DNA from: Oscillospiraceae bacterium | Lineage (GTDB): Bacteria; Bacillota; Clostridia; Oscillospirales; Ruminococcaceae | Reading direction: 5' to 3' | Assembly (NCBI GenBank): GCA_017416665.1 | Contig: JAFQBO010000352.1 | Location: 1-10,078, forward strand | Length of the DNA stretch: 10,078 bases | Shown: piece after piece, positions 3,278-4,847 of the stretch | How positions within the stretch are numbered: the first letter of the stretch is position 1 | Layout of the letters: every line of letters begins with the position of its first letter | Notes under the pieces: generated by a model | The model's input: only the letters and a program-made list of their open reading frames with translations | Told to the model about the DNA's origin: nothing | Database searches by the model: none | Made by a program: the position numbers and the translations under genes

Positions 3278-3314
3278 AGTACCCTTACCTTTCTCAAGTT
3301 ATCCAAACTCTTTA

Positions 3315-3343
3315 ATAATAACACATTACGAAAATTTTTGCAA
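3315..3343 (-). promoter_or_regulatory. Promoter of the topoisomerase operon
   Basis: On the minus strand a TTGCAA -35 box (3338-3343) and a TATTAT -10 box (3315-3320) are separated by exactly 17 bases. Transcription would begin near 3308 and give a leader of about 30 bases before the subunit B start codon. The promoter sits just past the terminator of the upstream non-coding RNA. The topoisomerase genes therefore appear to be transcribed independently of that RNA. Confidence 0.7.
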
Positions 3344-3352
3344 GCTTTTTTG

Positions 3353-3390
3353 AAAAATAAAAAAGAGAGAACATTTTAAATGCTCTCTCT
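3353..3390 (-). terminator. Intrinsic terminator of the large non-coding RNA
   Basis: Read on the minus strand, a stem of about 12-13 base pairs (arms 3378-3390 and 3364-3376, one G-U wobble, AGAGAG at the base) is followed directly by a U-rich tract, TTTTTTATTTTT. This is a textbook intrinsic terminator for transcription toward lower coordinates. No protein gene ends just before it, so its client must be the non-coding transcript. On the plus strand the downstream T-run is offset by several bases, and no plus-strand transcription unit reaches it. Confidence 0.85.
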
Positions 3391-4107
3391 GTGTTTTTTA
3401 TATTCAATACCGGAGGTTAAATATAACCTAAAATAATTAGTACATCGTAACCACCCTGTTATTTAATTTTTAGTTATGAAATTTTATCTTATTATTCTGG
3501 CGGAGCCACGTCCCTTCTCTTATTTTTTGATATTGTTCCTCAATTTCATTAGCATCACCTGAGCTTTATATCAGATTTATAAGATTCATATATTAAAGTC
3601 AATAAATTACTGCACCGGTACCACCTTTTCATGTTTCATTTATCCTTGATATATATGTAAAGACTTTAAGTCGTGACTTTCAGGAAAATTTCCTGAACCA
3701 ACTTTCAAACCATGTCCGAAGCATCAACGTTCTCCTGAGTCGTACAACTTATCAATTCGTCCTTCATTTCAAAGATTCTTTATTTCATTAACCGGAATTC
3801 TGTAACTTTTATAAAGTACCTGACTATTCCCTTTTTCTCATTTGAAATTACTTCCGAAAGATAAGTCACCGTTCATGGTCTGTGAACTCTGCTCATCAAC
3901 TGTTTCCACCGGCAACATACCTCCTCGTGATATAAATTTGTTTTCGTAAAAAGATTTTCCGAATCTTTATTTTCTGCCTTACGAAAACACCATCGCTTAA
4001 AGAAAACTAATAAACCTTTCTGAATATATGTCATTAACATTTGCTGGATTTATTTCTGCGATGAATTAACATATTTGTTTTTGCTTTTTATTTAGTTTTC
4101 TTTTGTT
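3353..4107 (-). ncRNA. Large structured non-coding RNA, about 755 nt, family not established (ROOL/GOLLD-like candidate)
   Basis: A transcription unit with its own promoter (4114-4142) and intrinsic terminator (3353-3390) but no convincing reading frame. The transcript folds by eye into many long helices. The 5' arm pairs 4058-4063 with 3991-3996 and 4046-4057 with 4001-4016. An 11-bp helix pairs 3979-3989 with 3939-3949 and is capped by a 7-bp hairpin (3962-3968 with 3950-3956). A nested central arm pairs 3874-3882 with 3706-3714, 3860-3869 with 3744-3753, 3841-3848 with 3766-3773, 3826-3830 with 3794-3798, and 3813-3819 with 3802-3809. The 3' part has hairpins at 3679-3697 and 3414-3429 and a helix pairing 3579-3585 with 3486-3492. 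Known ornate large RNAs such as ROOL, frequent in Firmicutes and rumen metagenomes, have this size and free-standing organisation. That assignment is inference; I do not recognise a diagnostic sequence of any family. It could also be a new class. Confidence 0.78.
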
Positions 4108-4113
4108 GTATAT

Positions 4114-4142
4114 ATAATAACACATCTGTTGTTAAAAGTCAA
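4114..4142 (-). promoter_or_regulatory. Promoter of the large non-coding RNA
   Basis: On the minus strand, a TTGACT -35 box (4137-4142), a 17-base spacer and a TATTAT -10 box (4114-4119) place the start of transcription near 4107. The -10 region shares the string GTGTTATTAT with the topoisomerase promoter. Its -35 box lies 57 bases from that of the divergent DUF1292 promoter. The AT-rich stretch between them contains two ATGCA-type repeats around 4149 and 4161, with no recognisable operator. Confidence 0.78.
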
Positions 4143-4199
4143 CAGTTTATGCAAAAAAACATGCACAAATATATCTATTTTGTTTATACAATATTACTA

Positions 4200-4228
4200 T
4201 TGACATATGCGTTGATTTGTAGTATAAT
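4200..4228 (+). promoter_or_regulatory. Consensus promoter of the DUF1292 gene
   Basis: A perfect TTGACA (4200-4205) and a perfect TATAAT (4223-4228) separated by 17 bases, the ideal housekeeping-sigma arrangement. Transcription should start near 4235, giving a leader of about 40 bases before the ATG at 4276. Such a full consensus match suggests strong constitutive expression. Confidence 0.9.
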
Positions 4229-4275
4229 TATTTTTGTTAGTTACAAACACGAATTATTAAAGATAGGAGTTTTTT

Positions 4276-4602
4276 ATGTCAGAATTACGTGAATTTGAAC
4301 CTGATTTATTCACTCTTGAAGACGAAGAAGGAAATGAACAGACATTTGAACTTTGTGACGTATATAAAGAAGGCGACACTACATATTTCGCTCTTATTCC
4401 TCAGCAGCTTGAAGACAGCAGTGACGAAGAGGATTATTTTGTAATTCTCAAGAGAGACGACAACGATCCTGACGAATATCTTGATTCAATTGACGATGAA
4501 GAAGAGCTCGACAGGCTTGCAGAAATATTCATGCAGAGAATCCTTGAAGATGTGGAAGATGAACATGAATGTCACGATGAAAATTGTGACTGTTGCCACT
4601 AA
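4276..4602 (+). CDS. DUF1292 family protein (YrzB-like), acidic, Cys/His-rich tail
   Basis: A 108-residue, very acidic cytoplasmic protein. The first two thirds match the DUF1292 pattern: an FTLEDEEGNE opening around 12-21, a central YFALIP strand at 37-42, a YFVILKRD segment at 54-61, and a final helix with EELDRLAEIF around 76-85. The family is widespread in Firmicutes and has no established biochemical role. The last 12 residues contain His97, Cys99, His100, Cys104, Cys106, Cys107 and His108. That is dense enough to suggest metal binding, although this is inference. AGGAG at 4265-4269 lies six bases before the ATG, and a full-consensus promoter is upstream. The gene ends only ten bases before the -35 box of the downstream RNA and has no terminator of its own, so some transcripts may run into that RNA. 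No signal peptide or membrane segment is visible. Confidence 0.88.
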   Translation: MSELREFEPDLFTLEDEEGNEQTFELCDVYKEGDTTYFALIPQQLEDSSDEEDYFVILKRDDNDPDEYLDSIDDEEELDRLAEIFMQRILEDVEDEHECHDENCDCCH

Positions 4603-4646: not shown

Positions 4647-4847
4647 AGAAAAATTAATTCTGCCTTGTTCGTGTCGGTATAGTTTTTATAATCCAACACT
4701 TTCTTTTAGGGAATCCGGTCTCTGACTGAGGATTGCAGACCTCCCGCCATGTGCGGACGAAGGGAGCGTGAGGCTTTCAGGAGGATACCCACCTTGCTTA
4801 ACAGCTTGGTTTTATTTCGCTATATGACGGCAAGGCGGTTTATTTTT
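4647..4847 (+). ncRNA. ssrS: Probable 6S RNA
   Basis: About 200 bases, the normal 6S length, behind its own promoter and without a reading frame. Its ends pair: 4660-4667 with 4831-4838 (8 bp, one wobble), followed by a U-rich tail (TTTATTTTTATT) that would terminate transcription. Inside, 4671-4673 plus 4676-4680 pair with 4785-4792 around a two-base bulge. Between 4712 and 4766 there are alternative hairpins, such as 4717-4721 with 4737-4741 and 4741-4745 with 4762-4766. A largely unpaired A/T-rich strand at 4681-4707 resembles one side of the central bubble that mimics an open promoter. 6S RNA binds housekeeping RNA polymerase and shifts promoter use in stationary phase. The assignment rests on layout and on a GTTCGTG..GGTAT / ATACCCACCTTG pattern that I associate with clostridial 6S RNA. 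I found none of the SRP, tmRNA or RNase P hallmarks. Confidence 0.75.

Follow-up and report, generated by a model that had tools for sequence, protein, structure and literature searches.

The locus raises the question of what is made from the minus strand between a gyrB/parE-like gene and a divergent gene for a DUF1292 protein in a 10,078-nt stretch of DNA from an Oscillospiraceae bacterium (contig JAFQBO010000352.1; the whole stretch that was analysed is called the window here). A preliminary description had proposed a free-standing, large structured RNA of a known or new class. The free-standing, structured character and the new class appear to be borne out by compensatory changes and by varying downstream genes, whereas the known classes named (ROOL, GOLLD and OLE) were not recovered, and a conserved ribosome-binding motif with an array of micro-ORFs had been missed. 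The best explanation, to which a probability of roughly 40% is given, is that the predicted transcript is a ribosome-engaging regulatory RNA which may serve as a sensor or sink of translation capacity.

The RNA is predicted to be about 750 nt long (3358..4107, minus strand). Its start is placed from a sigma-70-type promoter, TTGACT-17-TATTAT, with TG before the -10 element and ten of 12 consensus matches (4114..4142, minus strand), and its end from an intrinsic terminator (3358..3390, minus strand), where a stem of 12 pairs in the window copy (3390..3364) is followed by T's; this stem is helix 6 of the fold, with a change on both sides in five of its ten pairs. Both elements had been described before and both were found. 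Terminator-like sites in 3280-4280 number two, versus 0.2 in shuffles, and promoter-like sites eight, versus 5.3 (s.d. 2.4). Taken alone the promoter match is no more than chance, but a promoter is kept in the homologues, where a script recovered one in 31 of 33; G005 is cut by the contig end, and in G010 the script picked wrongly and the right promoter was read by eye. The script also returned a terminator-like hairpin near the RNA end in 29 of 33 RNAs, L100 ending with its contig and L113, L118 and L131 giving none. The single minus-strand ORF of at least 50 aa inside 3353-4107 is a 55-aa frame (4040-3873), which is interrupted by stops in eight of nine genus homologues and is open, with an unlike sequence, in the ninth (G007); no conserved long frame was found in the ORF list of the window or in the nine genus homologues. 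The earlier statement that the region lacks a convincing frame therefore holds for long frames and fails for short ones, since the window copy has four micro-ORFs with strong ribosome-binding sites.

When the window was searched against Rfam 15, as had been suggested, no family overlapped the RNA at E<=1, and the only match above a gathering score was 6S RNA at 4654-4845 (plus strand). No family reached its gathering score in the RNA, in the window or at 19 homologue loci. Two overlaps of chance level were seen at those loci at E<=1: L114 gave ARRPOF at its 3' end (21 bits against a cut-off of 127, E 0.58), and L112 gave caiA on the strand opposite to the RNA (31 bits against a cut-off of 55, E 0.29). 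ROOL, GOLLD and OLE are included in Rfam 15. None of them matched at E<=1 in the window or at the 19 homologous loci, and the proposed membership is given up in favour of the new class that had been named as the alternative, to which the compensatory changes also point. The RNA resembles these three in being large, structured, bacterial and apparently free-standing, without an assigned function; unlike them, it has a chromosomal place, often beside DUF1292 and 6S, and carries an array of ribosome-binding motifs and micro-ORFs. Nor was the phage or prophage setting of ROOL and GOLLD, often near tRNA genes, encountered, as no tRNA was found in the window, the window copy had no BLASTN match in phage and plasmid records, one exact pattern had no match in viral contigs, and Pfam identified housekeeping genes for four of the five neighbours tested. 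A T-box was considered as well. AAAAGGTGGTACC of the genus (g1) resembles the T-box sequence AGGGTGGNACCGCG, in which UGG pairs with the tRNA CCA; unlike a T-box, the RNA has several copies of the motif, UGG becomes UGA in many of them, and no common gene lies behind it. With a terminator of its own, unrelated genes downstream and no Rfam match in the window or the 19 loci, the T-box was rejected. Among the top-ranked results of the literature searches, which were made without subscription papers and most preprints, none describes such an RNA, and tandem ribosome-binding motifs with near-empty frames resemble nothing there. A human microbiome survey gives 3161 candidate RNAs of 27-219 bp (PMC8040213), among which fragments of the RNA could be included.

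Homologues were found in ten of the 11 genomes of the genus, its own included (BLASTN in 61, then 11 genomes). The main matches within the genus are 67-73% identical; the copy in G007 was weak by BLAST and was recognised on reading, and G004, the sole genus genome without a match, is an assembly 88% complete in 420 contigs. Covariance model R1, comprising hairpin H1 and micro-ORF A (both described below), detected two copies in genus g27 (E 8e-4 and 0.002), which show the whole plan of promoter, 5' stem, H1, A with its site, and several units of motif plus minigene. Model R2 gave matches in 13 of 16 g27 genomes at E<=0.1, of which 12 were accepted and that in G426 was false, as well as copies in g109, g141, g3 and g113, and model R3 added g15, g19, g150, g9 and g52. 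The weakest member, L152 (g52), has A and a C-like ORF without the motif core. Six further carriers were reached through DUF1292: motifs were counted in 70 DUF1292 loci from named genomes and 11 loci were read, which gave, on the divergent side, L026, L027, L028, L030, L034 (Ruminococcus sp.) and the more degenerate L029 (Massilioclostridium coli).

The working set comprises 42 RNAs from 16 lineages, that is 11 genus handles and five named groups possibly overlapping them. RNA length ranges from roughly 650 to 1900 nt, with several 3' ends approximate. The longest version, that of L034 (~1.9 kb), carries repeated C-type micro-ORFs (MIQLTSKRFEF twice) and repeated frames starting with MSR. Two copies were kept outside the set: L143, from a second g15 genome, and L123, which is cut by its contig and has an A-type ORF, MASEEPQYICCQDRILIQSL, so that its genome G428 is counted as a g27 carrier. 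L096, L111, L126-L128, L130 and L131 (weak first scores), L146-L152, L026-L030 and L034 were accepted by reading, with L146 and L148-L152 judged on micro-ORF lists alone. The models get their own training sequences back, and later E-values are not independent. L124, L125 and L129 proved false at R2 scores similar to those of accepted copies; therefore, weak scores needed reading. These three, with L121, L122 and L140, were rejected on reading, L142 for lying inside a long coding frame, and L141 and L145 for being without any motif core; L132, L134, L135, L136, L138 and L139 (E 0.004-0.04), with 0-2 copies in a core scan, were not accepted. All three matches of R2 outside the family in 394 genomes of the order (L140, L141 and L142) are among the rejected ones. 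R3 matches at E<=0.02 in 97 of 396 genomes, mostly at E 0.0001-0.02, and this figure is not a count of homologues, as R3 also matches ordinary gene starts. Overall, the copies read place the RNA in its genus and about ten further genera of the family, g52 being the weakest. We are highly confident that they represent a new conserved family of structured RNA, and a large covarying RNA spread across about eleven genera of a family prominent in rumen and gut would then be one to which no Rfam family corresponds.

The fold was assessed in several ways. The minus strand of the window copy folds with z = -3.97 against 20 shuffles, none of which was as good. Applied to an alignment of ten genus copies (A7), RNAalifold proposes 73 pairs, of which 24 have changed on both sides; 60 pairs of this prediction, kept in six helices, were used for the covariation count. 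Standard pairs fill 94.0% of the cells of these 60 pairs, versus 86.3% in shuffles of the 3' letters; changes on both sides occur in 23 of the 60 pairs and in 61 cells, versus 13.7 and 21.8 in shuffles, none of 500 being as high. When the partner is slid by 1-3 columns, pairing falls to 45-53%, a control that leans toward the structure because that structure comes from this very alignment. The count of further pair types alone is unremarkable (52 versus 49.4; 89 of 500 shuffles). Since 23 of 60 pairs show compensatory changes, as a check of covariation among homologues had been expected to reveal, the predicted fold is taken to be real.

The strongest helices are H1 and a long-range helix. H1 (3939..3989, minus strand; helix 1) has the 11 perfect pairs noted in the preliminary description, 3989-3979 with 3949-3939, and these covary: 99.2% of cells are paired, and eight of 16 hairpin pairs have a change on both sides. 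The 5' strand of the long-range helix (3861..3882, minus strand) is the 3' half of micro-ORF A, and it pairs with an inner strand at 3745..3752 (helix 3) and an outer strand at 3706..3719 (helix 2), both on the minus strand; 11 of the 22 pairs in helices 2 and 3 have changed on both sides. A putative 5' domain (3999..4103, minus strand), closed by a long stem of 4103-4087 with 4014-3999, was read by eye and from the MFE fold, and the stem is absent from the pairs that RNAalifold predicted from the ten genus copies. An alignment of six g27 copies yields 160 pairs, of which 39 have double changes; there too a long helix includes the 3' half of A, but this helix hardly varies in g27. Pairing of the first GGTGG with element D (see below), predicted in g1 by RNAalifold, does not covary and was left out. 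A second micro-ORF in g1 (MFRSWF-type, around 3724) was dropped, the stretch being a partner strand of the long-range helix.

The most conserved islands of the alignment resemble ribosome-binding sites with start codons. Micro-ORF A (3838..3909, minus strand) starts with GTG, reads METVDEQSSQTMNGDLSFGSNFK and has the ribosome-binding site GAGGAGG at 3926-3920. It is followed, all on the minus strand, by the motif AAAAGGTGGTACCG with the minigene GTG CAG TAA (Met-Gln-stop) at 3615-3607 (together 3607..3629), by the motif AGGTGATGCTA with micro-ORF C, MKLRNNIKK, at 3549-3520 (together 3520..3560), by element D, GGGACGTGGCTCCGCC (3492..3515), which has the motif without ATG and leaves GTG GCT CCG CCA GAA TAA open in frame, and by the motif AGGGTGGTTACG with the minigene ATG TAC TAA (Met-Tyr-stop) at 3445-3437 (together 3437..3457). 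The last minigene encodes Met-Tyr-stop in nine and Met-Cys-stop in one of the ten genus copies, with varying spellings (TAC TAA, TAC TGA, TAT TAA, TGC TGA). A is present in all 42 accepted RNAs, which is partly selection, as every model includes the A region; it has 14-29 codons and starts with ATG in 34 and GTG in eight. Several of L116-L120 (g27) have a second A-like micro-ORF downstream (MANETPQYMSLMDRKSTR, MAHETPQCICLSDWNCTR), as if the A domain had been duplicated. In part of g1 (window 3436-3390 and relatives), an anti-Shine-Dalgarno-like sequence, TTAACCTCC, lies slightly 3' of Met-Tyr-stop.

The recurring motif, GTG-R-NN-CC-N-ATG, resembles the complement of the 16S rRNA tail. Its consensus AGG-GUGA-N-UCC is complementary, with one bulged base, to the tail that we take to be GGAUCACCU, a sequence not drawn from these genomes. 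Across the 42 RNAs, 137 copies of the core GTG-R-NN-CC were counted, versus 9.5 in dinucleotide shuffles (at most 16). A cleaner test was restricted to sequence 3' of A, which none of the search models contains, and to 22 RNAs accepted without reading, ten from g1 by BLAST and nine from g27, L100, L144 and L137 by model scores: here 63 cores were counted, versus 2.8 in 100 shuffles (at most 9). The excess also appears in g1 only (10 RNAs; 23 versus 0.6, at most 3), with one RNA per genus (4 RNAs; 12 versus 0.4, at most 3) and in a set of 29 (91 versus 4.1); since the last includes seven RNAs accepted by reading, the 22-RNA and genus-only tests are preferred. Some of the stretches cut for these counts extend beyond the terminator and include part of the next gene, as in L131, which dilutes the signal. 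ATG or GTG starts that pair well with the 16S tail number 294 in 33 RNAs, versus 123 in shuffles. The GTGRNNCC core is absent from the RNAs of L147 and L152. Nothing is concluded from the complement of the core (2 versus 6.9 in the 42 RNAs, the lowest shuffle having 2; 1 versus 1.6 in the 22). Among 638 long ORFs of the same loci, with starts taken by a simple rule, the core lies within 20 nt of the start in three, a looser form of the full motif is found at 24 starts, and CC at -3/-2 at 48, versus 41 of the 42 A starts.

The frames behind the motifs are very short. In the 22 RNAs, 35 of 52 motif starts reach a stop within 3 codons, versus 84 of 537 other ATG or GTG codons; the same holds in g1 only (19/25 versus 34/159) and with one RNA per genus (5/9 versus 8/88). 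These 35 combine a Shine-Dalgarno sequence, a start and a stop after very few codons, in which they are like the two-codon minigenes of lambda bar type and of the txe leader; unlike the latter, several follow one another on a structured RNA that is putatively independent and has no common gene downstream. A study of such minigenes reports that, when very short ORFs are expressed, peptidyl-tRNA can be released at a rate that outruns its recycling, depleting a tRNA, and that the txe-leader minigenes act in cis in the leader of a gene (PMC8708949). It seems probable that ribosomes start at the motifs, and the micro-ORFs are likely to be translated.

If ribosomes do start there, the peptides themselves may be the product. 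The close rival of a ribosome-engaging function is that the RNA is a polycistronic messenger for micropeptides, namely A (14-29 residues), several basic C peptides (about 9-14 residues) and some di- to octapeptides, its structure merely controlling their translation; we hold this to be conceivable and somewhat doubtful. A keeps Glu5 in 34 of 42 RNAs (GAA 25, GAG 9) and Gln7 in 37 of 42 (CAG 34, CAA 3), with third bases changing. C-type peptides recur elsewhere with a common look, mostly basic and of about 9-14 residues (MRIFITRLNII, MLKICIKRFNI, MKVLTRFTDI, MKINVVFRLFNP and MKISFRSRRIT are examples), and their arginines use AGA, CGA, CGG, CGT and AGG as read by eye. In two g15 genomes the end of C reads TTC AGG ATC GGA CCC AGT GAA TAA (L147) and TTT AAA ATC GGT CCA AGC GAA TGA (L143), with six codon differences, five of them synonymous or stop-for-stop and one Arg/Lys (FRIGPSE versus FKIGPSE); because of these synonymous differences, the odds of the messenger are raised and those of a decoy are lowered. 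A codon-substitution test on nine genus copies gave in-frame z scores of 2.5 at A and 2.82 at C, with out-of-frame scores near zero or negative (-0.4 and -0.5 for C). Yet this signal is weak and not significant over the 628 intervals tested, the best having z 3.24 and one free of ORFs 3.15, and the scores count for the sole reason that A and C had been named beforehand. Against a messenger, moreover, two thirds of the motif starts yield only 1-3 codons, too short for the usual functions of a peptide, the peptide sequences diverge fast, and the apparent peptide conservation in the 3' half of A stems at least in part from conservation of the RNA, since that half sits in a covarying helix. Overall, it appears likely that selection has acted on the C peptide in places, and possible that it has acted on the start of A as a peptide. 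If micropeptides matter, the RNA, as a polycistronic messenger, would stand at the lowest extreme of what coding can be.

A second alternative does away with translation. The RNA may be the scaffold of a ribonucleoprotein in which GTGRNNCC binds a repeat-binding protein or another RNA, the likeness to start sites being a by-product. Element D would suit such a scaffold, since its motif lacks a usable ATG and a hairpin with a GAAA-type loop follows it in several genera, as would a spacer between Shine-Dalgarno sequence and start that is conserved far beyond that of ordinary genes (the 3 of 638 above). However, ATG and GTG alternate in place, the second and stop codons vary as they do in frames, and a stop within 3 codons, as at most motif starts, would be needless for a protein site; the scaffold is accordingly considered improbable. 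In the 3' part of L126, L127, L144, L096 and others, element D (GGGGTGAGTCC and similar) is often followed by this hairpin, for example AAAGAATGAAAGTTCTTT and AAGTGATGAAAGTCGCTT, with a stem that varies from genus to genus.

The gene behind the RNA bears on the remaining alternatives. In the window it is the gyrB/parE-like gene (3277-1295), on the same strand as the RNA and with a possible promoter of its own, TTGCAA-17-TATTAT at 3343..3315, as had been claimed. The nine other genus copies all have an oppositely oriented gene at this place, presumably rpoD-like in G009, G003, G005, G006 and G007, antiporter-like in G001, G002 and G008, and another in G010; the g27 copies have other downstream genes again. 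Because the next gene is convergent in nine other genus copies, the RNA is regarded as an independent unit and not as the leader of the next gene, in agreement with the preliminary description. That the RNA is a leader or attenuator of the gene behind it, or what is left of a decayed protein gene, is very hard to maintain, and both readings were rejected: the next gene is on the same strand in the window, and micro-ORFs and switching folds are common in leaders, but elsewhere in the genus the strand of that gene is reversed and its identity varies, terminator-like hairpins close most of the RNAs, no long frame is conserved and the fold covaries. A cis-acting minigene or leader peptide was likewise rejected in view of the RNA's own terminator and the differing genes downstream, which are convergent in the nine other genus copies.

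The preferred reading, a ribosome-engaging regulatory RNA, can be put as follows. The transcript of about 750 nt would fold into a 5' hairpin domain and the long-range helix. A would open the system: its 3' half could pair with the ribosome-binding site of A or, alternatively, with downstream strands, and a ribosome reading A would switch the fold. Downstream, several extended Shine-Dalgarno motifs would be followed by micro-ORFs of one to about twelve codons; therefore, ribosomes would start and then leave at once, without making protein. Its start sites would thus act as a decoy for 30S subunits, and the RNA, lying beside 6S, would absorb or gauge initiating ribosomes. Observations against the decoy role include signs of peptide selection on C and on the opening seven codons of A, for which a pure decoy would have no need, the lack of an ATG behind the motif in element D, and the lack of the core in L147 and L152.

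The alternative pairings that such a switch would use are present in part of the family. The spacer before the A start can pair with the 3' half of A, and this pairing beats 95% of shuffles in 16 of 42 RNAs (2 expected) and in six of 16 lineages (0.8 expected); it is not significant in the other 26 RNAs, and in g1 no pair of this stem has changed on both sides. In g1 the same 3' half of A also pairs with 3752-3745, and the two pairings are mutually exclusive. A ribosome on A might flip one into the other.

If ribosomes start on it, the RNA would be, to our knowledge, the first independent RNA for ribosome engagement instead of protein output, and the question of whether RNA controls translation capacity would become directly testable in cultured Ruminococcus.

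The neighbourhood suggests a comparison with 6S RNA, a known decoy for RNA polymerase. The gene for DUF1292 (4276..4602, plus strand), a small acidic protein of Pfam PF06949, is the divergent neighbour in 28 of 42 loci, DUF1292 having been the route to six of these, and in nine of ten genus loci, the tenth (L005) being cut at the RNA start. Directly behind it lies 6S RNA (4654..4845, plus strand; Rfam, 66 bits), which is a neighbour in several genera, being also present in nine of 19 homologue loci scanned (L127 below the gathering score) and in L028, L029 and L030. The RNA is like 6S RNA in being apparently free-standing and its genome neighbour, and a decoy for a core machine by analogy only; unlike 6S RNA, it has another sequence and fold and would be a separate transcript on the other strand, with the ribosome and not RNA polymerase as its target. 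It is tempting, and on balance unlikely, that the RNA is the ribosome-directed counterpart of 6S, in which tandem starts would soak up or gauge ribosomes, A would be the switch, and adjacency to 6S would let transcription and translation capacity be set together. DUF1292 was not found in 11 g27 loci, L150 and L152; therefore, the link of the RNA to 6S is not universal. Conversely, DUF1292 and 6S are present in L042 (R. callidus) and L047, where nothing like the RNA was seen. In the window, the promoter upstream of DUF1292 (4200-4228, plus strand) matches the sigma-70 consensus at 12 of 12 positions and stands back to back with the promoter of the RNA.
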